Shown piece by piece: positions 7,706 to 22,084 of a DNA stretch of 22,084 bases. Below the pieces are notes generated by a model. That model had not been told where the DNA came from. It ran no database searches and was given only the letters and a program-made list of their open reading frames with translations. The DNA is from a virus. Position numbers and translations under genes: made by a program. The DNA is taken from positions 1 through 22,084 of IMG/VR virus record IMGVR_UViG_3300006175_000035. One strand, 5' to 3'. Each line of letters starts with the position of its first letter. The stretch's first letter is position 1.

Positions 7706-8920
7706 ATGGCCCTTCTCAAGCGTGCAAACCCCGGCATCTCGATCAACTGGCGCCATCCCGCCGCGGACAATCTTCAATTTCTCGCCGTGACCCTGAATGG
7801 CGGCCAGATGGTCGATCTGGTCCGCAAGCTGAAGGGCACGTCCAACGGCAGCGCCTCGACCACGCAGGATCTAGTCATTGGACGCGCCACGGTGCTGGGC
7901 ACCCCTACTACAACAGATGTCGAGTTCGCCGGGTATAAGACAGCCGCGCAAGGCTACATGACCGTCGCGGCACTCGTGAGAATTACATCAACTGCGAATG
8001 CCGCGAACTACATATTGACCGACAACGTACCGGGAACGAGCGGCGTGCGTTTGTTCACGGGAACCACCAACAAGTTTACTTTTGCGTCGAGTGGTGCTAG
8101 CGGGCTCATTGCGGCGAGCGCGGTCGTGTCAGGCGCTGTCTATTTTGTTGCCGGTAGTTTTCACTTGGGTACGGTGGATAATCCGAGGGCCTTGGTCTAT
8201 CGGCGGCTGGATGGCGCCGGATTTGAGGCGCTATCGGACACCACGAACCCCGGCTCACCGACGCCTAGCGGCACGATCACATTAGGTCAGAAAAACGGCA
8301 CCTCATATTGGCATGGCGACATTGCATGGGCGCTACAGTCTTATAGCTACACGTCCATCGAGGAACTGATCCGCTGGTCGCGCGATCCATGGTCGATCTT
8401 CAACCGTGCATCTAGTTGGGCCGCCTATTCGTCGTCTAGTGGGGCCAACGCCTTTACGCAGTCCGTCAACGCCACGACCACGCCCAATGCCACGATTGCG
8501 CGGCAGACCGGCAGAATCGTCACCCAGAACACCACGCCGAACGCCACCATCGTGCGGCTCGCTGGCAAACTGGTGAACGCCAACTCAACACCCAACGCCA
8601 CCATCGTGCGTGCGAATGCCAAGATTGTCGGCGCGCAGACGACACCCAATGCCGCCATTGTGCGCTCGACACTGAAGCCCATCGCGGCCTCCTCGACACC
8701 CAATGCCGCCATCGTGCGGCAAACCGGCAAGGTTGTCAGCATCGACACCACGCCTGTCGGTGCGTTGACGCCGACGAAGCAAACCCTTTTCCATCAAACG
8801 CTTTCCATCAGTACGACGCCGAATGCGAGCATGTCCGAGACCTTCATCGCCAAATCGACGCCGCTGCCGCCGCACCGTGGCGTTCTCATCATCGGCAAAA
8901 TGACGCACAGGAACGAGTAG
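7706..8920 (+). CDS. LamG-like virion protein with 18-residue tandem repeats
   Basis: Residues about 20-245 look like a laminin-G/concanavalin-type beta sandwich: YMTVAALVRITST, YILTDNVPGTSG, GAVYFVAGSFHLG and the ending SYWHGDIAWALQSYSYT before a helix and RDPWSIFN. A Ser-rich linker follows, then five units of exactly 18 residues (consensus TPNATIVR plus a basic/hydrophobic half), a divergent copy and a last TPNAS element. The C-terminus carries PLPPHRGVLIIG. LamG-like domains bind sugars or proteins and occur in virion surface proteins, so a host- or capsid-surface role is likely. Its strong Shine-Dalgarno suggests abundance. In the middle of the LamG part base use is more AT-rich than in neighbours, which may mark a swapped-in domain. 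Confidence 0.72.
   Translation: MALLKRANPGISINWRHPAADNLQFLAVTLNGGQMVDLVRKLKGTSNGSASTTQDLVIGRATVLGTPTTTDVEFAGYKTAAQGYMTVAALVRITSTANAANYILTDNVPGTSGVRLFTGTTNKFTFASSGASGLIAASAVVSGAVYFVAGSFHLGTVDNPRALVYRRLDGAGFEALSDTTNPGSPTPSGTITLGQKNGTSYWHGDIAWALQSYSYTSIEELIRWSRDPWSIFNRASSWAAYSSSSGANAFTQSVNATTTPNATIARQTGRIVTQNTTPNATIVRLAGKLVNANSTPNATIVRANAKIVGAQTTPNAAIVRSTLKPIAASSTPNAAIVRQTGKVVSIDTTPVGALTPTKQTLFHQTLSISTTPNASMSETFIAKSTPLPPHRGVLIIGKMTHRNE
8480..8749 (+). repeat. Five tandem 54-bp repeats
   Basis: Five consecutive in-frame 54-bp units begin at 8480, 8534, 8588, 8642 and 8696, each coding TPNA(T/A)I(A/V)R plus ten residues. The core codons are well conserved and the second half varies (RQTGRIV, RLAGKLV, RANAKIV, RSTLKPI, RQTGKVV). 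A shifted sixth unit (TPVGAL) and a late TPNAS follow. Equal length without indels points to amplification by unequal recombination or slippage within the coding frame. Confidence 0.85.
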
Positions 8921-10069
8921 ATGGCCGCATTCACGACCCCGGAATCGATCGTCAATCGCGGCCTGCAAAAGCTCGGCGCCTTCCGCGTCACATCGCTTGC
9001 CACCGACACGACCAAGCAGGCGACCGAGGCGAACTTCCTCTACTCCAAGCTGCGGCGCGCCGAATTGCGTCGCAACACCTGGCGCTTTGCGATCCGCCGT
9101 TGCCTCCTGCGCGCCGTCGGCTCGGCTCTCCCGGCCTGGGATGCGACCGTCACCTATGTCCTGAACTCGCTCGTCAGCTACAACGGGCTCAACTACATCT
9201 CGATCCACGCGACGCCGAACCTGAACCAGAACCCGGCGACAGCGACGACCTACTGGACGCAGTTCAGCGGCAACACCAGCCAGAAGGTCACGTTCCCGGC
9301 ATGGGCCATCGGCACGACCTACGGTGCGGGCGCCATCGTGGTGGGGTCGGACAATCTGCTCTACCTCTCCATGGTCTCCAGCAACCTGGCGCACGACCCG
9401 ACGACGGACGATGCGACGCACTGGACGCTCTACTTCGGTTCCGATGTCGCATCCGCCCTCGATCCCTCGACGACCTACGGTGTCGGCGAGATCGTCTTCG
9501 ACGCCTACCAGAACGTCTACTACTCGCTGGCGAACGGCAACCCGCTCATTCTTTTGATCGTGGGCGGCGTGCCGCTGCCGCCGGGACCAAGCTGGGCGCT
9601 GCTGACCGGCGCCACGATTGCCCCCGTCGTCATTCCATGGCCAGCGGGCACGGGACCGGCTTCCGAACAGATGTCGCGCAACGTCTTTCCGTTGCCGTAC
9701 GGGTACTTGTTCTACGCACCGCAAGACCCCAAGGCGGGCTCAACCTCCTATCTCGGCTTTCCGTCGAACCTCATCAATAACGATTGGGTGTTCGAGGGCG
9801 GCTACCTGATTTCGATGGACCCCGGCCCGATCATGTTCCGCTTTGCCGCCGACGTGACGCAGGTGGCGCTCATGGACGATCTGTTCTGCGAAGGCTTTGC
9901 GGCGCGCATCGCATTGGAGATGTGCGAGTTGCTGACGCAAAGCCAGCCCAAGCTCGCCTCCATCGCCAGCGAATACAAGCAATTCATGAATGAAGCGCGG
10001 CAGCGTAACGGCATTGAGACGGGACCGACCGAACCGCCGATGGACGATTTCATCGCGGTGCGTTTCTGA
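8921..10069 (+). CDS. Tail tubular protein A (gp11-like) with inserted glycan-binding-like modules
   Basis: The two ends of this 382-residue protein match the T7 gp11 type adaptor that joins the portal to the tail. Residues 1-70 have ESIVNRGLQKLGA and ELRRNTWRFAIRR. Residues 250-382 have LPYGYLFYAPQDP, NDWVFEGGYLI, GPIMFRFAADVT, EGFAARIALEMCELL and the final DDFIAVRF. Between them about 180 residues are inserted with three similar units around W73, W128 and L180. Each reads like WxxxTTYxxGxIVxxxxxxYxS followed by a closing Trp, the usual look of family 5/12 carbohydrate-binding modules. Canonical gp11 relatives are shorter, near 200 residues. The ATG follows the previous stop directly. The adaptor role is well supported, while glycan binding is inferred. 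Confidence 0.87.
   Translation: MAAFTTPESIVNRGLQKLGAFRVTSLATDTTKQATEANFLYSKLRRAELRRNTWRFAIRRCLLRAVGSALPAWDATVTYVLNSLVSYNGLNYISIHATPNLNQNPATATTYWTQFSGNTSQKVTFPAWAIGTTYGAGAIVVGSDNLLYLSMVSSNLAHDPTTDDATHWTLYFGSDVASALDPSTTYGVGEIVFDAYQNVYYSLANGNPLILLIVGGVPLPPGPSWALLTGATIAPVVIPWPAGTGPASEQMSRNVFPLPYGYLFYAPQDPKAGSTSYLGFPSNLINNDWVFEGGYLISMDPGPIMFRFAADVTQVALMDDLFCEGFAARIALEMCELLTQSQPKLASIASEYKQFMNEARQRNGIETGPTEPPMDDFIAVRF
9137..9604 (+). repeat. Three CBM5/12-like modules inside tail tubular protein A
   Basis: Residues 73-115, 128-171 and 180-228 repeat a pattern of starting Trp or Leu, TTY or VTY, a hydrophobic valine strand, an aromatic Y-x-S strand and a closing W: starts WDATVTYV, WAIGTTYG and LDPSTTYG, ends YWTQF, HWTLYF and SWALL. 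The spacing is 40-50 residues. Protein-level similarity is clear, but the DNA has diverged. Confidence 0.75.
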
Positions 10070-10070
10070 A

Positions 10071-10355
10071 ATGATCGAGATCGTTGTTCGCACCTGTGAG
10101 CGTGCCGACATCCTCACCGAGGCGGGTGTCGCCGACTACATCGCGCGCAAGTACGCGGGCACGCCACCCAATGACTTCATGGTGGCACTGATCCCGCGCG
10201 ACGATCCGGTGCTGGTCCAGATGGTCAAGGAGAGAAAAGGCGACAGCCTTGTGGACGGCTGTTCCAAGCCGAAGATCATCGCCCTGCCGGACGGCTCGCA
10301 ATGGCACCTCGTCGGCGGTGCGCGCTTTCCCGAATGGGTAGCGCTCGATGGCTAA
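10071..10355 (+). CDS. Hypothetical 94-aa protein
   Basis: The ATG at 10071 starts one base after the tail tubular A stop. An earlier in-frame ATG at 9990 lies inside that gene and is less likely. The protein starts MIEIVVRTCERADILTEAG, has a YIARKYAGTPPNDFMVALIP stretch and ends WHLVGGARFPEWVALDG. The mixed strand/helix pattern and conserved-looking DP and GG turns suggest a compact domain. No family is recognised. Its stop lies 8 nt inside the endonuclease gene. Before the insertion it was probably the gene directly upstream of tail tubular protein B. Confidence 0.62.
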   Translation: MIEIVVRTCERADILTEAGVADYIARKYAGTPPNDFMVALIPRDDPVLVQMVKERKGDSLVDGCSKPKIIALPDGSQWHLVGGARFPEWVALDG

Positions 10356-10923
10356 ATCAGCAGTTGCTCGTGAACGTAATCGTCTCTGGATGAAAGCGTA
10401 CCGCGCTACGCCAGAAGGAAAGGCGGCGTGCAGAGAAGCAAAGCTTCGTGTCTATCAGACGCCAGAAGGTCGCGAAGTCATGCGCGAAGGAAAGCGCCGT
10501 TGGAAAAAGTCGGAGCGCGGCAAAGAGACGACAAATAAAAATCAGCGCAAACGATACGTTGCGTCGCCGCGCGTTCTCCTGACTGAGGAGGAAAGAAAGC
10601 GGCGCAAAAAGGAATCTATTGCCCGCTCTCTAGCAAAGCCATCAGTTCTTGCAAAACGCAAAGAAACTGCATGGAAGGCGCATCTCAAGCGCACCTATGG
10701 CATTAGCGTTGAGCAATACGAAGAGATGTCAAAGTACGGCTGCCAAATTTGCGGCAAATACAACTCTCATGGCCGCAAGTTGCATGTCGATCACGACCAC
10801 AAGACAAAGCATGTGCGCGGTGTGCTCTGCGATCCATGCAATCGTGGCCTAGGAACGTTTTTCGATGACCCAATACTCCTCGAAGCGGCTGCTTCGTATC
10901 TGAGGAGTACGTGCCATCGCTGA
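10348..10923 (+). CDS. Endonuclease VII-type HNH endonuclease
   Basis: Residues 118-187 match the recombination endonuclease VII fold: YGISVEQYEEM, zinc ligands Cys132/Cys135 and Cys161/Cys164, HVDHDH with Asp148 and His149, and Asn165 after the second cysteine pair. This is the layout known from T4 endonuclease VII. A GLGTFFDDPILLEAAASYL helix closes the domain. The first ~115 residues are very basic and carry about four 17-18-residue units (TPEG at 21 and 38, SERG at 55, a weak SPR at 73), which suggests DNA-recognition repeats. It may be a free-standing homing endonuclease or a junction resolvase. Its place in a structural operon and its lower GC favour homing. The 3' end contains the next gene's ribosome binding site. 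Confidence 0.9.
   Translation: MAKSAVARERNRLWMKAYRATPEGKAACREAKLRVYQTPEGREVMREGKRRWKKSERGKETTNKNQRKRYVASPRVLLTEEERKRRKKESIARSLAKPSVLAKRKETAWKAHLKRTYGISVEQYEEMSKYGCQICGKYNSHGRKLHVDHDHKTKHVRGVLCDPCNRGLGTFFDDPILLEAAASYLRSTCHR
10902..10907 (+). promoter_or_regulatory. Shine-Dalgarno before an apparent ATC start
   Basis: GAGGAG lies inside the end of the endonuclease VII-type gene and 8 nt upstream of an ATC (10916) in the tail tubular protein B frame. That frame has a TGA at 10901-10903 and then no ATG, GTG or TTG until 11012. Confidence 0.6.
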
Positions 10924-13900
10924 CGCGTCTTTTCAACAGTCTCTGTTCACGGCGGGTGAGTGGGCACCGTCGCAGCAGGGCAAGACGGAAGACCCGCGCT
11001 ACAAGGCCGCCTTGGCGCAATGCCTGAACTACATCCCGACGATGGAAGGAAGCCTCAAGCCGCGTTCCGGTTGGCGCCGTCTCGGCATCTCCTATCAGGG
11101 CCGCAACGCCATCGTGCTGCCGTTCCGATTCTCGGCGGTCGAAAGCTATGTCGCCGAGATGAGCGACTCGATCATTCGCCTGTGGGCCAACGGCCAACTC
11201 ATCATTCAGGATACACTCAACATCGCCAGTGTATCCACGGGCGGCACGCCGACCTTCACTATGGCGTCCAACTTTCCGACGGCTTGGACTGTGTCAGGGG
11301 CGACGGTCAAAATCCACTTCTCGACCATTGCCGCGATGGAGAAGGCGCCGTTCCTGTGCAATCGCGAGTTCTTACTCAATGTTACAGGCGCGAACACCTG
11401 CACGCTGACCGATGCGGCGACCGCGGCGCCTTTGACGACGCCGATTGCTACGACGTTCACCGCGCGCATGGATCTGATCTTCAACTTCGTCATCCCGGCC
11501 AACATCGGTTCGCTCGAAGTGGTCGATACGGAAGACGTGCGCATCCTGCAATACACCTCGCAGAAGCTGTTCGAGCAGGGCCGCTTCGCCAGTGCGGTCG
11601 ATCACAAGGCCGCGATCATCGCGCCGCAGTTTCCGCCGATCGCGTTTTCGACTTCGCGCGGGGTGATGAACCCGATCTACGAGCAGTTTCAGGACGGGCC
11701 GTACTACGACAGCATCGGCGACTCGATTCCCGTCGATGTCAGCGGCACGACCGGCAACATCACCGTCACGCTCAACTTGTTCAGCCTGACCTTGACCTAC
11801 AACACGGGCGACCTCGTCTATTCCGGCGGCAATGTCTTCGTCTCGCTGATCGACAGCAACACCGGCAATGCGCTCCCTGCCGTCGCCGATGCGCATTGGG
11901 CACTGGTGCCGACGACATGGAACAGCGGCACGACCTATGGTTTGGGTGCACCCTCCACCAGCACGCCGAACAATGCCTTCGGCGTGCCGACCGTCTACTA
12001 TTCGATCCAGACGGCGAACACGAACCATGCGCCGACGACCAGCCCGACATGGTGGTCCACCACGCCGCCGACCTATTCCGGTGCGATCTCCTATGTGGTT
12101 GGTGCTGTCGTCGTCTCATCCGCCATTCAGTACGTCTGCATCCAGGCGGGCAGCGGCCACACACCCGCCTCATCGCCGACCTTCTGGCTCCCGGTCAACT
12201 TCAGTGCGGCGGTCGCCGGACAAACCAGCACGACCACAGGGCAGGCTGCAGCCAACCGCTTCTCGCTGACCGATGCCAGCGATACGGCACCGTCCACCGA
12301 CAGCGTTCTCGGCCTTGCCGGTCGCCTCATCCGTCTCAAAGTTGGACCGCAGCCATGGTCGAACAAGACCACGTATGCGGTCAACGACCAGGTGACCTTC
12401 GACGACATCATCTACAAGGCGCTGGCGATCAACACCAACAAGCAACCCGACACCGATGTGGTGAACTGGCAGGTTCAGACGCTCACGATCCAGTGGACGT
12501 GGGGCATGATCAAGACCTACATCTCGCCCTATCAGGCGGTCGTCACGATCCTCGGCGATGATCTCCGCAACAACAACACGGTCTGGGAATACCGCCTCGG
12601 TCTTTACAGCGACACGACCGGCTGGCCGTCCTGCGGCGCCTATCATGAAGGCCGCGTGATCCTGTCGAGCTTTACCCAGACGCGCGAGTCGAACGATACG
12701 CTTTCCATCGTGCGCTCGCAGGGACTTGCCAACCGCGTCGATATGGGCGCACCGGATCAGGGCTTCACCTTCACGCCAACCGCTCCCGATGGGACGGTCT
12801 CGGACGGCAACGGCATCGCGATGGTGTTGAACGCGGCAGGCAACGAACATGTCTGCACCATCGCCTCCTCGCTGGATGGCGTTCTCGTCAACACCGACAT
12901 GAGCGAGTGGGTCATCTCAGCTTCGAACCTCAACGATCCTCTGACGCCGACGAGCGCGCAGGCCAAGCGCACATCGCAATACACCAGCGCGCAAGTCGGC
13001 AGCGTCCCTCTTACCGCTTCCAATGCTTTCGTGCAGGGCAATCGCCGCCGCCTTCTGGAATACAAGTCGTTCATCGACGTGACGGCCTATCAGGTACGTC
13101 CGAACGCGGCGGACTTGACCAAGGATTGCCAGCATTTGACGGTCAACGGCATCGGCCATGTCGAGTTCCAGCGCGTGCCGCAGCCGGTGATCTGGTGCTC
13201 GACCGGCCAGCGCGAAGCCTTCTGCCATCGCCACGACTACGGCCACCAGTTGTTCGGCATCGGCTACTGGCGCGGCCCCGATCAATCCTATGTCGCACCG
13301 TTCTCGATGGAGCACGGCATCGAACTGTTCTACGGCAGCAAGCTCGATTACCGCTCCGTTGGCGTGCAGTACGGCACCGACGACACCGCGGAATATCTCT
13401 ACGCGCAATTCGGCGGGCAGTCTGGCGGCGGGGTGATCGAGTATCTGGAGCCGGTGTTCGACACGTCAGGGCCGAGCGATTTCATCACGTTTCTCTACGC
13501 GCCGAACCTTTTGAAGGCGAACCAGAAGCTCATGGCGCCGTCGGTGTTTCTCGACGCTGCTGTCTCGCCGTGCGGTTTCAAGGAAGCGAGCGATCATACC
13601 GGCGTGACCTACTATGGGCTGTGGCCGCATGTCGGCATTCCGGTCTCGTTCGTCATCAACGGCAAGTACATCGGCGAGTTCACGCCCGCGAGCGACGGCA
13701 GCGTCTTCGTGCCGTTCAGCAACGGCGCCTCCACGACGTTCCACGAGAACGGTAACTTCTCGGTCTACGACACGGGGCAGGCGATGTGCTCGACCAACAG
13801 CCCGCTCGTTCTGCCGGACTACTATCAGGAGTTTCTTTACGACGTGAATGGCGATGTGAACGGTCCCGATGTGGACCAGTCCAGTCCGCCGATCACCAAG

Positions 13901-14263
13901 TACACGGCGTATTTCGGCTACAAGTACCGCCGCCGCGGCAAGACGCTGCGCCCGATCATCGGCTCGCAGAATGGTCCGACCTTCGCCAAGACGGTCAGGA
14001 ATGCCCGTATGGGCGTGTACGTCGATTCGGCGCACGAGGTTTCGATTGGCGGCTCGTTCTCGAACTTGGTGCCGCTGACGTTGACCGTCGATGGGCCGCG
14101 CGACGTGACGGCGCTGGGGATCGACGGCTTGGCGACCGGCATCTTCCGCGACTTCGTCAAGGCCGATTACGACTACGACGGGCAGTTGTGCTGGGAACAG
14201 ACTGAGCCCTATCCCGGCGGCATCCTCGCCGTCGGCGGTTTCGACAACGTAACGGACGTTTGA
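10916..14263 (+). CDS. Tail tubular protein B (gp12-like), apparent ATC start
   Basis: This large protein (1115 residues from 10916; 1083 from TTG 11012) is the main tail-tube or nozzle subunit. Its beginning reads ADASFQQSLFTAGEW, then KAALAQCLNYIPTMEGSLKP and RSGWRRLG, which matches the conserved N-terminus of this family. I therefore place the start at ATC 10916, where related genes would have ATG, behind GAGGAG. CTG 10943 and TTG 11012 are fallbacks that would remove conserved residues. The middle carries four carbohydrate-binding-like modules (11779-12478). The remainder has family-like SWPSCGAYHEGRVILSS, FQRVPQPVIWCSTGQREAFC and a C-terminal KYRRRGKTLRPIIG region. Homologous ejection conduits bind tail tubular A above and the fibres below. 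Confidence 0.88.
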   Translation: MADASFQQSLFTAGEWAPSQQGKTEDPRYKAALAQCLNYIPTMEGSLKPRSGWRRLGISYQGRNAIVLPFRFSAVESYVAEMSDSIIRLWANGQLIIQDTLNIASVSTGGTPTFTMASNFPTAWTVSGATVKIHFSTIAAMEKAPFLCNREFLLNVTGANTCTLTDAATAAPLTTPIATTFTARMDLIFNFVIPANIGSLEVVDTEDVRILQYTSQKLFEQGRFASAVDHKAAIIAPQFPPIAFSTSRGVMNPIYEQFQDGPYYDSIGDSIPVDVSGTTGNITVTLNLFSLTLTYNTGDLVYSGGNVFVSLIDSNTGNALPAVADAHWALVPTTWNSGTTYGLGAPSTSTPNNAFGVPTVYYSIQTANTNHAPTTSPTWWSTTPPTYSGAISYVVGAVVVSSAIQYVCIQAGSGHTPASSPTFWLPVNFSAAVAGQTSTTTGQAAANRFSLTDASDTAPSTDSVLGLAGRLIRLKVGPQPWSNKTTYAVNDQVTFDDIIYKALAINTNKQPDTDVVNWQVQTLTIQWTWGMIKTYISPYQAVVTILGDDLRNNNTVWEYRLGLYSDTTGWPSCGAYHEGRVILSSFTQTRESNDTLSIVRSQGLANRVDMGAPDQGFTFTPTAPDGTVSDGNGIAMVLNAAGNEHVCTIASSLDGVLVNTDMSEWVISASNLNDPLTPTSAQAKRTSQYTSAQVGSVPLTASNAFVQGNRRRLLEYKSFIDVTAYQVRPNAADLTKDCQHLTVNGIGHVEFQRVPQPVIWCSTGQREAFCHRHDYGHQLFGIGYWRGPDQSYVAPFSMEHGIELFYGSKLDYRSVGVQYGTDDTAEYLYAQFGGQSGGGVIEYLEPVFDTSGPSDFITFLYAPNLLKANQKLMAPSVFLDAAVSPCGFKEASDHTGVTYYGLWPHVGIPVSFVINGKYIGEFTPASDGSVFVPFSNGASTTFHENGNFSVYDTGQAMCSTNSPLVLPDYYQEFLYDVNGDVNGPDVDQSSPPITKYTAYFGYKYRRRGKTLRPIIGSQNGPTFAKTVRNARMGVYVDSAHEVSIGGSFSNLVPLTLTVDGPRDVTALGIDGLATGIFRDFVKADYDYDGQLCWEQTEPYPGGILAVGGFDNVTDV
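11779..12478 (+). repeat. Four CBM5/12-like modules inside tail tubular protein B
   Basis: Four segments share a TTY/TLTY-type first strand, a valine strand, an aromatic strand and a closing Trp: FSLTLTYNTGDLV to HWALV, WNSGTTYGLG to WWSTT, YSGAISYVVGAVVV to FWLPV, and WSNKTTYAVNDQVTF to NWQVQ. The third and fourth are separated by a linker with Ser/Thr/Ala-rich segments. The resemblance to the modules in tail tubular protein A is seen at protein level. Confidence 0.75.
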
Positions 14264-14678: not shown

Positions 14679-16883
14679 ATGCCAAATCTACCGACTTACG
14701 ACTCGCCAAAAGCGCAGCAGGGATTGCAGGTCTCCGATCTGGGCGTCAGTGCATGGGAGCAAGCCGCCGGCACGTTCAGTCGCGTCGGTCGTCAGCTTGG
14801 TGAGGCTGCTAGCCATGTCATCGACACCTACCAGCAAAGCCAGCAGGCCGAGGACGCGGTCGATTTCACCAACAAGAGCACCGACTGGAATATCAAGTCC
14901 GATCAAGACTGGGCTGACTATCAGAAGAAGGGCGGCAAGGCAGAAGACTATCTGCGCGATGTCTACGAGCCGGGGCAGCAGAAACTTCTTGACGGCCTTC
15001 GCACCGACAAGGGCAGACAAGCTGCCGAGATGGCGCTGGCGGAACAGCGCTCGACATTCGCCAAGAAGATATTTGGTGATGAGGCGAAGGCTGCGTCGGA
15101 CAACGGAAAAATCGCGCTGGAAAACTCCGGTACCGTCTACGGGACACACGCTTTTGACGATCCGTCCAGTGCGCCCGCCAACTTCGCCGCATGGACGCAC
15201 AGCGCGGCGTTCCTTGCTGGCGCGCATGGTGTCAGCGCCGCAGACCTTGCAGAGATCACACAAAAGGGTGGCGAGTTCATCTACGGACAGTCGGCAGCCG
15301 GTTTGCTGCACAATTTCATGGTCGATCCGAACCCGACCCAAGAAAAAGCCGATGCGATCAAAAAAATCCTCGGTCAGGACGATTACCGCCAGTATCTCGG
15401 CAAAAACTATGGCGAGTACATCGACAAGCTGGACAAGGCCGTCGGTGCCAATGACGATGTGCAGGGCGAGATTGCCGCGCAGGCACTTCCCAGCATCTAC
15501 AAGGCGATCGAGAGCGGCGACGTAAAGCGGGCCGATCAGGCCGAAGTCCTTATCGCGGGCGACACGCACGGCGATCATCCTGAAGTGAGGCAGGCCGAGC
15601 AACGCAGGCAACTGGCGGATGCCTTGGCCGTCGGCACCGCGTCTCAGGGCATGGTCAATGTCTCGGACGCTGCGGCACAGAACGCCCTTCCTGCGCTGCA
15701 AGCGCGGATGCGCGATCCGAGCACGACGCCGGATCAGTTGGCACCGCTGCAACGCCAGTACGACGCCATTCTCAAGGCGATCAAGTCGCGGGACGAGGGG
15801 ATCAAGTCGGACGGGGCGCAATACTTCCTGAACAATCCGCAACTCTACGGCACCGTCAACGCGAAGTATCAGAAGTTCCTGCAGACCAAAGACCCGAAGG
15901 ACTTCGCAGCCTATGCGACGGCGGTTGCCTCAGCCGAGCGCACCATCAATCCGGCCAATCCGGTCAGGATTCTGCCGCAGGAATTGTTTCGCGACGTAGC
16001 GGCCCAGATCGGCGCTGCCACGCAAGACCCGGAAGGGGCGCTGACGGTGGCGACAACGCTCTCCAACCTGCGCACCTTGACCGGCCCCTACTGGAATGGC
16101 GTGGCGCATGAACTGCAAGCCAATGGCGTTCTCAAGGGCGGCGTGTTTGCCGCCGCACAGCTTATGGGCGACCCGAAATCATGGAGTTTGGGTCAGGAGA
16201 TCATCCGTGCGTCTGTGCTGAAGGACGAGGACTTGACCTTGTCGTCCGGCAAGCCGCGGGCTGCTGCCGACATGATCGCCGCCAAGGCGCTCAAGGATTT
16301 GTCCGCCACCTTCGCCGAGACGACCAACGGGCACGAACTGGTGGACTCCTACGTCCACGCCATCTCGGATGTGATGCGTGCGCGCGGCACGGTCGATGCG
16401 ACCACGGCAGCCAATCTGGCGCAGACGATGGTGCTGGACCGCTTCAACATCAGGAGCAACCTGCGCATCCCCAAGAACTTAGACGACAGGGACGTGGCCG
16501 ATGGTGCCGAGAACGTCATGGCGCATATCGACACGCACAACATCATCCCGCCGCCTAGTTTCAGCGGCCTCAAAGGCGAAGCGCAACGCACGGCCTATGT
16601 GCAAGATGTGCGCGACTACGGCCATTGGGTGACGAACGCGCAAGGCGATGGCGCACAACTGCGCGACCAGTTCGGTTCGCCGGTCTATGAGCGCAACCAG
16701 AAGGGCGCGAGCGTTCCCGTCGAAGTCCCCTACACCGATCTGGAAAAGATCGGACGCGGCATCCGTGGCCCGTTGAACCAGATCGGGCGCTTCCTGACGA
16801 ACCCCGGCTCCTTGCCTGAAATCAAGCCGACTGACGGCACGACATTCGTTCCGCCGTCACCGTTCGGCAAACCGAGACCCTGA
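14679..16883 (+). CDS. Large internal virion protein (gp15-like)
   Basis: This 734-residue protein is almost wholly helical and polar, with many Ala, Gln, Lys and Asp residues and no membrane segment or enzyme motif. It starts LPTYDSPKAQQGLQVSD, contains repeated DDYRQYLGKNYGEY and ALQARMRDPSTTPDQ like helical stretches and ends with a Pro-rich tail (VPPSPFGKPRP). Its position between the gp14-like and transglycosylase genes fits an ejection protein that forms part of the internal core and the trans-periplasmic tunnel. The call is by order and composition, not by a catalytic feature. It ends one base before the next start (TGATG). Confidence 0.75.
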   Translation: MPNLPTYDSPKAQQGLQVSDLGVSAWEQAAGTFSRVGRQLGEAASHVIDTYQQSQQAEDAVDFTNKSTDWNIKSDQDWADYQKKGGKAEDYLRDVYEPGQQKLLDGLRTDKGRQAAEMALAEQRSTFAKKIFGDEAKAASDNGKIALENSGTVYGTHAFDDPSSAPANFAAWTHSAAFLAGAHGVSAADLAEITQKGGEFIYGQSAAGLLHNFMVDPNPTQEKADAIKKILGQDDYRQYLGKNYGEYIDKLDKAVGANDDVQGEIAAQALPSIYKAIESGDVKRADQAEVLIAGDTHGDHPEVRQAEQRRQLADALAVGTASQGMVNVSDAAAQNALPALQARMRDPSTTPDQLAPLQRQYDAILKAIKSRDEGIKSDGAQYFLNNPQLYGTVNAKYQKFLQTKDPKDFAAYATAVASAERTINPANPVRILPQELFRDVAAQIGAATQDPEGALTVATTLSNLRTLTGPYWNGVAHELQANGVLKGGVFAAAQLMGDPKSWSLGQEIIRASVLKDEDLTLSSGKPRAAADMIAAKALKDLSATFAETTNGHELVDSYVHAISDVMRARGTVDATTAANLAQTMVLDRFNIRSNLRIPKNLDDRDVADGAENVMAHIDTHNIIPPPSFSGLKGEAQRTAYVQDVRDYGHWVTNAQGDGAQLRDQFGSPVYERNQKGASVPVEVPYTDLEKIGRGIRGPLNQIGRFLTNPGSLPEIKPTDGTTFVPPSPFGKPRP

Positions 16884-18526
16884 TGTCCTCTCAAGGACTT
16901 CCCTTCAACCCGGTCCTCAGTGGCGGACCGGCTGCTCCCATTGAGAGCTCGACGCTGTCCAAGCCGGACTTGGGCGGTGCCGCACAGAGCACATGGGGCG
17001 CGGCCTTCCGATCCAACTTCGGCCAATCGCCCGTCGTCACGGGACTGGCGCGCGCCTGGGGCGACTTCCAAGACCCCACACCCGTCAGCCATGACGATGC
17101 GGTCCGGCTGGTGCAGTCGCAAGGCTACGACGCGGCGTTCATTCCCAAGACCGGCATGAGCCGTGGTGCGATCAATATGGAGGTCGATCGCCAGTACCGC
17201 GTCAAGCAGGCGCAGATCATGCTTGAGCGCGGTGGCGGTGGCGGCTTCGTCACCAACTCGACGGCAGCCTTGGCTGCTGGCTTGTCCGATCCGAGCAACA
17301 TTGTTCTGGGTCCTGCCTTTGGGGCTGTAGCGGACGTGGCACGGGGCGGCTTGGCGGTGAGGGCCGGAATCGGGGCTGCCATGGGAGCGGCCTACGCGGG
17401 CGGCATGGAGTCAGCGCAGGCCCATCTGACGGGGCATGACGAAGACATCGGCTCCTGGTCGATGTTGAGCAACATGACGCAGAGTGCGGCCCTCTTCGGA
17501 CTGATGCACGGCGCCCTTGGTCCGCGTGTCGCGCCGGAAACGATCAAGGCGGCAACCGCTGGCCGTCTCGTGTTGAGCGATGTTTATGGACTTGAGCGCA
17601 GCGGTGAAACGGCTGTCTCTCCCAAAGGTGCTGTTGGGCGCGGGCAGGTCATGCCTGAGACGGCAAGGACGCTCGGCTTTGATCCGTCGCGGCTGGGCGA
17701 GCCGGAATACAACGCCAAGGTCACGCAAGCCGTCTTGGACGATCTTCAGAAGAAGTTTCCCAATGACCGCGAAGCGCAGGCCGTCGGCTACAACGCCGGT
17801 CCCGGCAGGGCGAACGAATGGATCAAGGCTGGCCGCAATGACGCCGTGTTACCAAAAGAGACACAGGCCTATCTTGCCAGACTGCGCGGTGGGGTTGAGG
17901 GCGGTGAAGTCATTGCACGGCGCGCAGCCGCACCAGAAGACGAGCGGGTAACATCGCCCGCATCTCTCTCCGACGATCAGGCAGGAGAATTGCGCGCACG
18001 GCTGGCCGAGCTCGAAGCCAAGGCCGACAGGACGCCGGTGGAAGATGCCACGCTCGCGAGCATCCGCGATCTGATGAAGGAATCCGCCGATAGTGTTGCC
18101 GAGAAGCAACGGTTGGCGCAAGTCGCGCTGGCGCAATATGCCGCCGACAATCCTGTCAGTGTGGACCCGTTCCGTAGCGGCGTTCCATCCGATCCGCTCA
18201 AGGCGCAGGCCGTTGACAATGCAGCCCGCGCTGCCATGCCGGACGCGCTCAAGAACACGCCTGCCCCGTCGAGCGTGCCCATCATCAAATCGCTTGAGAC
18301 GAAGCCAGAAGAACCGAATGCGCTCGCGCAACAGTTTGTCAAAGACGCCAAGGCGCGTGTGACGGCGCTCAAGCCGGAACGCGGCGAAGCCTTTGACGAG
18401 GCCGTGAACGAAGCGCCGCTGGAACATGAGCCGGATACCAAGATGACGCACGACGAGTTCACCAAGTCCGTTCAGGCGGCGGTGCAATGCGCAATGGCGC
18501 AGGGGGTGAAACTTGCCGTCGAATAA
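16883..18526 (+). CDS. Internal virion protein with lytic transglycosylase (SLT) domain
   Basis: Residues about 230-335 carry an SLT-type domain: GLERSGETAVSPKGAVGRGQ with the likely catalytic Glu238, VMPETARTLG, and GYNAGPG at 302-308, then the ETQAYLARL end. This would open peptidoglycan locally as DNA enters, as T7 gp16 does. An earlier hydrophobic, Gly/Ala-rich stretch (about residues 127-177) may touch the membrane. The C-terminal third is helical and acidic (RARLAELEAKADRTPVEDAT). The Glu-to-SPKGA spacing is a residue or so different from common SLT enzymes, so the exact catalytic Glu is a judgement. It overlaps the following TTG start by 14 nt. Confidence 0.87.
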   Translation: MSSQGLPFNPVLSGGPAAPIESSTLSKPDLGGAAQSTWGAAFRSNFGQSPVVTGLARAWGDFQDPTPVSHDDAVRLVQSQGYDAAFIPKTGMSRGAINMEVDRQYRVKQAQIMLERGGGGGFVTNSTAALAAGLSDPSNIVLGPAFGAVADVARGGLAVRAGIGAAMGAAYAGGMESAQAHLTGHDEDIGSWSMLSNMTQSAALFGLMHGALGPRVAPETIKAATAGRLVLSDVYGLERSGETAVSPKGAVGRGQVMPETARTLGFDPSRLGEPEYNAKVTQAVLDDLQKKFPNDREAQAVGYNAGPGRANEWIKAGRNDAVLPKETQAYLARLRGGVEGGEVIARRAAAPEDERVTSPASLSDDQAGELRARLAELEAKADRTPVEDATLASIRDLMKESADSVAEKQRLAQVALAQYAADNPVSVDPFRSGVPSDPLKAQAVDNAARAAMPDALKNTPAPSSVPIIKSLETKPEEPNALAQQFVKDAKARVTALKPERGEAFDEAVNEAPLEHEPDTKMTHDEFTKSVQAAVQCAMAQGVKLAVE

Positions 18527-21137
18527 TTGCCGAGGAGAGATCGAGGCCGCTCTTGGTCGTGCGTTGACGGCCAGCGAGTACAAGGCTGTTTCGCGCAATG
18601 GTGCCAAGCTCAAGGCCGCGATCGACGGCGCCAATGGCAACCCGACCGCTGCGAACACCATCCTCGACAACTTCCTGAAAGAGCGCGAGTTCATCAAGGA
18701 CGCCAAGAAGATGATGGCGGCTCAACGCGAACTCGCGAACGCCAACTTGCAGGATCGCGTCTTTGCGAGCGGCGACTTTGCGTGGAAGGCTCCCGGCGAA
18801 GTCTTGAAGTCCATGCTGATCGGCTCGCTCAAGGTCTTCAAAGGGGCAGGCGACAGCCTCGGCAGAAACATCACACGCGGCTCCGCGCAGCGGATGCAGG
18901 CCATCTTCGACCATCTGGAACAGGAAGGGCTTGCGCAATACGCCTTCAGCGGCACGGACGAGAAGAACCTGTGGCGGGCGTTTGCCGCACTCTCGGCTGG
19001 CGAGGACGCCACCAAATTCGGCGATCTCGCAGCGCGCACCGCCACACTGCTCAAGAAGCACACCGACGCGCTTTGGTTCGACAAGCACGCGGCTGGCATC
19101 CCGCAGGGCAGGCTCGAGGATTGGGCTGGCCCTCAGATGCACGATCCGTATTCGCTAGCGCGCGCCGGTGGCAACAGGTTCGGCAGCGATGCATCCGCGA
19201 AGGCGTGGGTCGATTCAGTCATGCCGCGCCTGGATTGGTCCAAGAGTTTCGGCGGTCAGTTTCTTGCGGCGGACGACACCCTGCGTTCACGCCGTCTCAC
19301 GGAAATATGGACGCAGTTCGTCGCCAACGAGCATCTGAAATATGGCGGCAACAACTTCCTCAAGAACCGCGAAATCCATTTCCAGTCGCCGGTCGATGCC
19401 TACAACTACAACGCCGAGTATGGCAACGGTCGCACGCTGGCCGAGAACGTCGTCAGCCACCTCTCGCGCGGTGCCCGCGATGTCGAGACCGCCAAGATGT
19501 TCGGCTCCAATGTGGAATACTCGTTCCGCAAGGTTGCGGACGGGATGCAGAAGATCATCAACGAGAACCCGGACATCTCGCCCAGCAAGCGCGCCAAGGC
19601 CATCAAGGAAATCGCCGCGACAACCGACAAGGCCGAGAAGTATTGGATACCATCGCTGACCGACAGTCTCGTCAATCCCGAGCACGGTGGCGCGGCGCAG
19701 TATCTCGCGGCAATGCGCACAGGCATCAACGCGCTGGCGGCTGCCGGTGCAACGCCTGTCCTGATCGGCGACATCCCGCTTGCGATGCGGCTCATGGGCG
19801 AACACGGCGGGCGTTCGCTGCAAGGCTATGTCAATGGTCTGAAGAAAAGCGTCGATTGGATGGCGGGGCTTTCCAAAGAAGAACGCTCGCGCCTCGCGGC
19901 CAGTGGCGAAGTGCTGTTGCAGGATGCAACCCGTCCGATGACGCACGCGCACACCGATTGGGCTGGCTTCGGCATCGTCAACCGCATGGAACAAATGCTG
20001 ATGAAGTACGGCGGTCACACCGGCTGGACCGATCGCTTCCACATGAACCAGCTTGTCAACTTCGGCATGGATCATTGGTTCGACAAGGATCGTGCGTTTG
20101 CTGATCTGCTTCCCGGCCAGCAAGACTTGTTCACGCGCTACGGGATCAGCGCGAAAGAGTGGGATGTGATCCGCCAGCAAGACCCGCTGATGTTCGACAA
20201 TAACAAGGCTGGTATCTTCACGCCGCGCAACGTGCGCCAGATGGATTTAGAGAAATTCAAGGCGCTGGTAGGACAGGACGCGTCCGATAGCCTCTTGCGC
20301 TCCACACGCACAGATGTTGCGGACAAGTACCGCAACCTGCTTGGCGACATGGCGGAACGTGGCACGGCTGCGCCGGATGCGGAGATGCGTGCGATCACGC
20401 TGCATGGCACACGACCGGCAACGCCCGTCGGCGAGCTCGTGCGCAATTTCAATTCTCTGAAATCGTGGACCTACAACCTCATGCGCAATCATCTGGGCGC
20501 GAGCATCTACGGCGATGCCAACCCGGACAATGTCGGCTGGGGCAAGGCCATGTGGGCGTTTGCGACAGGGCAGGGCGGCAACCGTGGCGGGCGCCTCGGC
20601 ATGGCGAAGTTCATCGCCAACAACCTCGTATTCGGCACACTCATCGTCACGCTGGCCGACATCCGTGACGGCAAGCAGCCGGAACTGCCGACAAGCGGAG
20701 AGGCTGCGGGTGATCTCTTGTGGCGCGGGTTCGCACGTCAGGGCCTTGGGCTCTATTCCGATTTGCTGATGAGTCAGTTGGAACACCCGGATCAATCTCC
20801 GTTTGAGACGGTCGGCAGACTGGCTGGTCCATCTGTCGGCGATGCCGTCGATCTGACGCAAGCCGCTGCGCGCATCGCAAAGTCGCTGTGGAACTACTCG
20901 AGCGACCCGGACTACGACAGCGACAAGTTCTGGAAGTCGATGGATCGCAGCGGCGCTCAGGCTGGCCGTGTCGGATACAGCCTCATTCCCGGCACGAACT
21001 TCGCGTGGGCGAAGTGGGCGACCGATTACTACATCAAGGACAATCTGCTCGACATGCTCAATCCCGGCTACAAGGATCGGCTCTTGAAGCGTGCGCAGGA
21101 TCAGGGACGGCCTTACGTGCTGGCACCGCAGCAATGA
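18513..21137 (+). CDS. Large ejection / internal core protein, 874 aa
   Basis: The TTG at 18513 has GGGGGTG a few bases upstream and begins MPSNNCRGEIEAALGRALT, a start-like motif common in large phage internal proteins, so I accept it although it overlaps the previous gene by 14 nt. No enzyme motif is recognised. Regions include a long charged helical body, YIVNRMEQ-like helices near residue 490 (GFGIVNRMEQMLMKYGG) and a hydrophobic segment at about 697-717 (MAKFIANNLVFGTLIVTLAD) followed by DIRDGKQPELPTS. The order and length suggest it completes the gp16-like ejection protein that the separate transglycosylase gene begins. Its C-terminal GLYSDLLMSQL region resembles others in podophage internal proteins. 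Confidence 0.75.
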   Translation: MPSNNCRGEIEAALGRALTASEYKAVSRNGAKLKAAIDGANGNPTAANTILDNFLKEREFIKDAKKMMAAQRELANANLQDRVFASGDFAWKAPGEVLKSMLIGSLKVFKGAGDSLGRNITRGSAQRMQAIFDHLEQEGLAQYAFSGTDEKNLWRAFAALSAGEDATKFGDLAARTATLLKKHTDALWFDKHAAGIPQGRLEDWAGPQMHDPYSLARAGGNRFGSDASAKAWVDSVMPRLDWSKSFGGQFLAADDTLRSRRLTEIWTQFVANEHLKYGGNNFLKNREIHFQSPVDAYNYNAEYGNGRTLAENVVSHLSRGARDVETAKMFGSNVEYSFRKVADGMQKIINENPDISPSKRAKAIKEIAATTDKAEKYWIPSLTDSLVNPEHGGAAQYLAAMRTGINALAAAGATPVLIGDIPLAMRLMGEHGGRSLQGYVNGLKKSVDWMAGLSKEERSRLAASGEVLLQDATRPMTHAHTDWAGFGIVNRMEQMLMKYGGHTGWTDRFHMNQLVNFGMDHWFDKDRAFADLLPGQQDLFTRYGISAKEWDVIRQQDPLMFDNNKAGIFTPRNVRQMDLEKFKALVGQDASDSLLRSTRTDVADKYRNLLGDMAERGTAAPDAEMRAITLHGTRPATPVGELVRNFNSLKSWTYNLMRNHLGASIYGDANPDNVGWGKAMWAFATGQGGNRGGRLGMAKFIANNLVFGTLIVTLADIRDGKQPELPTSGEAAGDLLWRGFARQGLGLYSDLLMSQLEHPDQSPFETVGRLAGPSVGDAVDLTQAAARIAKSLWNYSSDPDYDSDKFWKSMDRSGAQAGRVGYSLIPGTNFAWAKWATDYYIKDNLLDMLNPGYKDRLLKRAQDQGRPYVLAPQQ

Positions 21138-22084
21138 GCAGGATCACGCGCGTCCGTGGCATTCGCTCACCTGTCGGTCCGGGTTCTGTTCTCGCACGCT
21201 CGGATGGCGGTACGGGGCCGGTCACGCCGCACAAGGCGCAAGGCGGCATCCTCGCCAAGAAGGGCAAGCTGGCGCTGCAACTGACTGGCGATGTGAGCAA
21301 CGACACGACCGGCAAGACGACCGTCGGCGCCTTGGCCGGTGTTCCGCTTGACGTATCGACCCTTACCAACGGCTTCGTGCTCGCCTACGACAGCGGGTCC
21401 AGCACGCTCAAATTGCAGGCAGGCGGTGCCAGTGGGGCCACAGCCTTCACAGGACTGACGGACGTTCCGGGCAGCTATTCCGGCGCGTCGCTCAAAGGCG
21501 TGCGTGTCAATGCCAGCGCGACAGGACTTGAGTTTCATGCGCCATTGTTCACGGACCTTGCCGACGCGCCGTCCAGCTATACGAGCCAGGCGCTCAAGGC
21601 GGTCCGCGTCAACGCAGGTGCCACCGCTCTTGAGTTCTACACGCCGAGTTCTGGCGGTGCGACGGCCTTCACCGGCCTGTCCGACGTTCCGGCAAGCTAT
21701 TCCGGGCAGACGCTCAAGGCCGTGCGTGTCAACGCGGGCGAGACGGCGTTGGAGTTCTATACGCCGTCTGCCGGTGGCGGCTACTCGGCAGGAACGCCGC
21801 CCACCATCGTTCAGAGCGTCGTGGACAATTCTGGCGCAGCCACGATCACATTCCCGTCCGCACCGACCAACGGCAACATCCTCGTCGTCATGGCGTTCAA
21901 TCCGACGGTTGGAACACAGGGCACAGGCTGGACGCTGGCAGGAAACAACGGCGCCGGAACCGACTTCGGACTGTTGCTGACGAAGACGGCCGGCGCATCG
22001 GAGCCTGCATTGCAGACGCCGCTTTCGTCCTCGCCGGGAGGGACAGGCGTTCTCATGGGCTGGGAACTGACGCCAAGCACCTTG
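21134..22084 (+). CDS. Tail fibre-type protein, 3' truncated
   Basis: The gene starts at an ATGA overlap with the preceding stop, and its frame stays open for 317 codons to the window edge. The first 90 residues include GPGSVLARSDGGTGPVTPHK and beta-rich KKGKLALQLTGDVS. Then come three repeats of FTGLxDVPxSYxGxxLKxVRVNAxxTxLEFxxP. After them is a domain starting TIVQSVVDNSGAATITFPSAP, with the GNILVVMAF strand and GWTLAG. That mix of DVP-type repeats and a late beta-sandwich is typical of phage tail fibre or appendage proteins. The receptor-binding end is missing. It is placed last after the ejection genes, as fibres often are. Confidence 0.8.
   Translation, partial: MSRITRVRGIRSPVGPGSVLARSDGGTGPVTPHKAQGGILAKKGKLALQLTGDVSNDTTGKTTVGALAGVPLDVSTLTNGFVLAYDSGSSTLKLQAGGASGATAFTGLTDVPGSYSGASLKGVRVNASATGLEFHAPLFTDLADAPSSYTSQALKAVRVNAGATALEFYTPSSGGATAFTGLSDVPASYSGQTLKAVRVNAGETALEFYTPSAGGGYSAGTPPTIVQSVVDNSGAATITFPSAPTNGNILVVMAFNPTVGTQGTGWTLAGNNGAGTDFGLLLTKTAGASEPALQTPLSSSPGGTGVLMGWELTPSTL
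21440..21766 (+). repeat. Three in-frame repeats in the tail fibre gene
   Basis: Three units begin FTGLTDVPGSY, FTDLADAPSSY and FTGLSDVPASY and end LEFHAP, LEFYTP and LEFYTP. Unit starts are 102 and 120 bp apart, and the longer step comes from an extra SSGGA linker. Units two and three share long stretches of similar DNA, which suggests duplication of fibre shaft segments. Confidence 0.85.

Follow-up and report, generated by a model that had tools for sequence, protein, structure and literature searches.

CBM5/12-fold modules in the tail adaptor and nozzle proteins of a lineage of uncultivated BcepC6B/BPP-1-type podoviruses

Lactococcal phages of the 936 group carry carbohydrate-binding modules on the neck, the tail tube/tail protein and Dit; binding to host cells was shown for two of them, a tail module and, more weakly, a neck module (PMC6669499). 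Phage A-1(L) has a carbohydrate-binding module in its neck fibre, for which no host binding was seen (PMC10966104). In phage T7, adaptor and nozzle each have a fibre dock and the fibre is held between the two, while the tip of the nozzle is directed at the outer membrane (PMC6702177). Tail tubular proteins have been reported as binders of host receptors (PMC7241545), and a lectin-like domain and capsule-degrading activity were reported for KP32 TTPA (PMC5440376). In the CBM5 and CBM12 families, chitin is bound by a few aromatic residues, a Trp pair in the former and Trp687 in the latter (PMC8449059).

The window analysed here is the complete 22,084-base IMG/VR virus record IMGVR_UViG_3300006175_000035, a piece of a podovirus genome. 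Its genes follow the order portal, scaffold region, major capsid, small genes, adaptor, nozzle and internal virion proteins; the plan of Burkholderia phage BcepC6B and Bordetella phage BPP-1 has the same order and the same gene names. The ORF upstream of the adaptor (7706–8920) has about five repeats of TTPNA[TA]IVR close to its C-terminus and a weak match to the StcE beta-sandwich domain. An Endonuclease VII-type gene (PF02945, 74.6 bits) lies between the adaptor and the nozzle at 10348–10923, its stop overlapping the nozzle start, and a second HNH gene (PF13392) lies at about 2505–2861. The gene at 16883–18526 encodes a virion-type protein that includes a transglycosylase SLT domain (PF01464, 46.7 bits). 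The fibre genes are mostly outside the window; the ORF at 21100–22084, which is open at the window end and contains repeats like GLTDVPxSYSGxxLKAVRVNAxxTALEF, probably represents the beginning of a tail fibre gene. No Rfam families were found in the window, and a genome scan returned solely distant capsid matches (26–39% identity) in varied bacteria.

The tail adaptor (tail tubular protein A, gp11-type, 382 aa) is encoded at 8921–10069 and the tail nozzle (tail tubular protein B, gp12-type, 1115 aa) at 10916–14263, both on the plus strand; they belong to PHROG 394 and PHROG 376, respectively. The pattern W....TY..G..V......Y.S....N....P......W recurs in seven stretches, three of them belonging to the adaptor and four to the nozzle. 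With the Pfam profile CBM_5_12 (PF02839), the adaptor scores 25.3 bits and the nozzle 16.7 bits, both below the curated cut-off for membership (26.2 bits); on the genome, the places found by this profile (9134–9256, 12074–12187 and 12356–12433) are all sub-cut-off. A module profile made from relatives alone, with the window excluded, gave 16.9–54.6 bits for the seven stretches, and the top score among 400 residue-shuffled copies of the adaptor and nozzle was 13.4 bits. The adaptor modules, all on the plus strand and within residues 69–230 or so, are A1 (9125–9268, residues 69–116, 42.1 bits), an extra module also present in the relative L056; A2 (9290–9454, residues 124–178, 54.6 bits), which has a W..YFG signature; and A3 (9452–9610, residues 178–230, 16.9 bits), a degenerate half module with an insertion in its second loop and the weakest and least certain call. 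The nozzle modules, on the same strand, are B4 (11771–11917, 32.9 bits), B5 (11900–12067, 27.3 bits), with a long loop between strands, B6 (12056–12217, 34.8 bits) and B7 (12320–12496, 53.7 bits), which is preceded by GR.xR.. The module count of the initial annotation, three for the adaptor and four for the nozzle, and its positions both stand.

The adaptor was modelled with AlphaFold (AF2) from alignments without rows from phage records (pLDDT 77). The model has helices at residues 7–18 and 32–51, a strand at 58–63, the insert, further strands and long helices at 320–338 and 342–364, that is, the four-helix bundle with fibre-dock strands of gp11-type adaptors. Its core matches the Carin-1 connector (VIA-align Z 16.3), the LME-1 adaptor (15.9), KP32 TTPA (12.1) and T7 gp11 (11.7–11.9). 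Compared with plain adaptors the insert is clean, bounded by '...LLRAVGSALPAW' and 'NVFPLP...', and is situated between helices 2 and 3, in a region of five strands. By strand order, it is predicted to lie between strands 1 and 2 of the counterpart of the T7 fibre dock. The A2 model superimposes on the chitin-binding domains of chitinases over 48 residues at 1.3–1.5 Å with Z 7.0–7.9. The A1 model matches the tail fibre of cyanophage A-1(L) (8kec) over 47 residues at 1.6 Å with 38% identity; the matches of A1 and A2 together extend over 42–48 residues at 0.9–1.6 Å. The Z values of these module matches, 7–8, lie in a range where common arrangements can occur, but the sequence evidence agrees with the fold match. 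In A3, beta strands are modelled at 191–193, 199–202 and 225–228 with lower confidence.

The nozzle model, built from alignments of the same kind, has a pLDDT of 65. B7 is confident (pLDDT 84–93 in blocks covering 471–530), B4 has partly confident strands at model residues 281–310, and B5 and B6 are of low confidence. The model aligns with the Carin-1 nozzle over 619 residues at 2.7 Å (Z 25.6) and with T7 gp12 (Z about 17). Its propeller matches span 49–867, and it agrees with the gp12-type nozzle, a beta-propeller whose platform is built from both termini. The flanks of the modules are thus of gp11 and gp12 type, as the initial annotation had it, and the insertions concern two proteins at two levels of the tail, the adaptor ring and the nozzle. 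Profiles of the adaptor and nozzle gave no HHalign alignment to T7 gp11 and gp12, so the T7 positions are based on secondary-structure order and shared motifs. Mapped by shared motifs only, the nozzle modules appear to occupy the blade-3 excursion, which is the nozzle tip in T7. A candidate module in the Carin-1 nozzle (residues 212–262), aligned opposite B7, was rejected, with 2.3 bits against up to 8.9 bits for shuffled sequences.

The apparent start codon of the nozzle is an ATC (10916), preceded by AGGAGT and positioned exactly at the ATG, GTG or TTG of relatives (10902–10930: GCCATCGCTGACGCG, against GCCATGGCTGACGCA in L029); the next in-frame ATG, GTG or TTG is at 11012. The nozzle of contig L011 has the same ATC start. 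This codon is a rare start codon, a case of translational coupling or a sequence error.

The modules are real domains of the CBM5/12 fold: short beta modules with the scaffold aromatics W, Y, Y/W and W in order. The assignment is based on structure for A1 and A2 and on sequence for B4–B6, A3 being degenerate. Residue columns were set by aligning the modules with ChiA1 (1ed7), ChiC (2d49) and MmChi60 (4hmc); the ChiA1 reference sequence in this alignment is provisional in part. The scaffold aromatics, equivalents of ChiA1 W656, Y662, Y675 and W696, occupy columns that are about 100 per cent aromatic in 153 dereplicated modules. The two columns of the CBM5 Trp-Trp pair are aromatic in 1 and 3 per cent of these approximately 153 modules, and the column of CBM12 Trp687 in 1 per cent. 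None of the six window modules in the alignment has ligand aromatics, be it the exposed Y-W or W-W pair of CBM5 or Trp687 of CBM12. Canonical chitin binding is therefore unlikely, judging from these residues, though another surface of the modules might bind. The CBM5/12-type fold that had been proposed is borne out by the structure predictions; the sugar binding proposed along with it is not supported as it was stated, given the loss of ligand residues from the window modules and from 97–99% of the 153 modules of relatives.

Single-protein searches of IMG/VR returned just three adaptor relatives and one nozzle relative. Relatives were gathered by alignment of the major capsid protein, which gave 80 related viral contigs. 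The lineage carrying the modules is one of uncultivated BcepC6B/BPP-1-type podoviruses. Modules are present in 41 of 41 non-redundant adaptors (window included, some cut by contig ends), with 1–7 matches each, and in 36 of 36 nozzles of the lineage, with 1–6 matches each, the weakest of these matches being marginal. There is one conserved module per protein: the adaptor module with the W..YFG signature (A2 in the window) has a fixed position in 39 of the 41 adaptors, and the nozzle module with the GR.xR flank (B7) in 31 of the 36 nozzles. The remaining modules vary in number between relatives. Sixteen contigs of 35–47 kb were searched whole, and all module matches fell inside the adaptor or nozzle ORFs, as identified by ORF length (for record G011, inferred). 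In one contig (L019:8986–10179), a frame change, either real or an assembly error, divides the adaptor between two ORFs.

More distant adaptors are plain, about 186–276 aa long, with no recognised modules; they are found in bacterial genomes (L091, L092, L094, L095 and L097) and in BcepC6B, ct8d5349 and ct3Et533. The insert is thus absent from canonical gp11 relatives, as had been supposed, but it is shared by every lineage member examined and not peculiar to the window phage. Alcaligenes phage Piluca and two Acinetobacter phages combine a nozzle module with a plain adaptor. In this limited sample, the nozzle module seems to be the older or the more widely distributed of the two, and we infer that the adaptor modules were gained within the lineage of the window phage.

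Modules and core diverge at about the same pace. In close relatives, core and module identities are 0.92 and 0.92, 0.88 and 0.87–0.89, and 0.85 and 0.83–0.84. For pairs with more than 5% amino-acid divergence, dN/dS is 0.07–0.19 in adaptor modules and 0.07–0.30 in nozzle modules, low and about equal to that of the core. The modules are under purifying selection like the core, and these low values argue that they are maintained for a function. Typical receptor-binding tips, by comparison, diverge faster than the core. The nearest neighbour of a module is in the same gene of another genome in 189 of 202 cases and in the other gene of the same genome in only one. This gives no support to recent intragenomic copying between adaptor and nozzle, one of two origins suggested by the initial annotation. 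Old exchange or shared selection may have acted: adaptor and nozzle modules are slightly more similar within a genome (0.171) than between genomes (0.159), an excess reached by at most 1 in 1000 label permutations and larger than the differences explained by residue composition (0.000–0.004). Across the two genes, the clearest case links A2 of the window to the nozzle module in L006 and L056.

What the modules do can be read in several ways. We tentatively favour, at a little under even confidence, a lineage-wide virion decoration of adaptor and nozzle that makes weak multivalent contact with surfaces through a non-canonical binding mode. The adaptor ring and the nozzle would bear strings of modules that, during adsorption, ahead of the main fibres and alongside them, make ancillary, low-affinity, multivalent contacts to the cell surface or to polymer around it, binding without the canonical chitin-binding aromatics. 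With the stoichiometry of T7 (12 adaptors and 6 nozzles), a virion would carry 36 adaptor and 24 nozzle modules, about 60 in all, and the T7 fibre-dock and nozzle-tip positions suggest that they would be exposed outwards. This contact reading is favoured by analogy with the 936 phages (PMC6669499) and with tail tubular proteins reported to bind a receptor (PMC7241545) or, in KP32 TTPA, to have a lectin-like domain (PMC5440376), and is supported by the reality of the modules, their chitin-binding-domain fold, their lineage-wide presence, their restriction to adaptor and nozzle and their low dN/dS. The absence of ligand aromatics weakens it, as does a divergence no faster than that of the core, unlike that of typical receptor-binding tips, and the A-1(L) module without host binding (PMC10966104) calls for caution.

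A close rival, which we hold to be somewhat less likely, is an elaborated fibre dock, in which the CBM scaffold would have been repurposed for protein–protein contact, bracing adaptor and nozzle or holding fibres or spikes. The two proteins with modules are precisely those that make up the fibre-docking site of T7 (PMC6702177), the adaptor insert falls within the five strands that separate helix 2 from helix 3, scaffold aromatics are retained where sugar-binding ones are gone, the modules are under selection as strong as the core is, and each protein has one module whose position is fixed and whose flanks are conserved; a module number varying from 1 to 7 among relatives would nevertheless be odd for a fitted dock, and the nozzle modules appear, by motif mapping only, at the tip excursion and not at the nozzle fibre dock. 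That non-sugar-binding CBM scaffolds serve as a reusable brick, building an expanded docking or bracing collar in which module number is tuned and both proteins co-evolve, is possible, though less likely than not. The near-empty ligand columns make it improbable that these are canonical chitin/GlcNAc-polymer modules gripping chitin, peptidoglycan or capsule by stacked aromatics, even though chitin-binding domains are their best matches in both sequence and fold. If a small domain that inserts easily had simply accumulated, largely by neutral change, the variable module number and the degenerate A3 would be accounted for; retention throughout the lineage and low module dN/dS make this very improbable.

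On the favoured reading of surface contact, a decoration of virions with modules that is known from siphophage necks and tail fibres is fixed in the adaptor and nozzle of a widespread podovirus lineage, and the part of non-fibre tail proteins in adsorption becomes open to direct test. Automatic labels of 'carbohydrate-binding protein' on such nozzles rest on a scaffold without the known sugar-gripping residues.

The modules resemble the CBM5/12 domains (PF02839, SM00495) of bacterial chitinases in fold, size, strand order and scaffold aromatics, but differ in lacking the ligand aromatics, in being part of virion proteins and in scoring below the Pfam cut-off. As in the 936 phages, small binding-type modules have been added onto neck and tail virion proteins; however, those are siphophages of a Gram-positive host with different proteins, and host binding was measured there for two modules, whereas the present ones are known from sequence and models. 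The core folds are those of T7 gp11 and gp12 and of the Carin-1 and LME-1 adaptors and nozzles, in which no string of CBM5/12 modules is recognised. The nozzles of Alcaligenes phage Piluca and the Acinetobacter phages likewise contain a module, that of Piluca being annotated 'carbohydrate-binding protein' with SM00495, but only a single one, and their adaptors are plain (186–187 aa). The module fold is also common to phages A-1(L), 7-7-1 and Milano and to the Anabaena contractile system; there the modules are located in fibres or baseplates, whereas in the lineage of the window they are confined to the adaptor and the nozzle.
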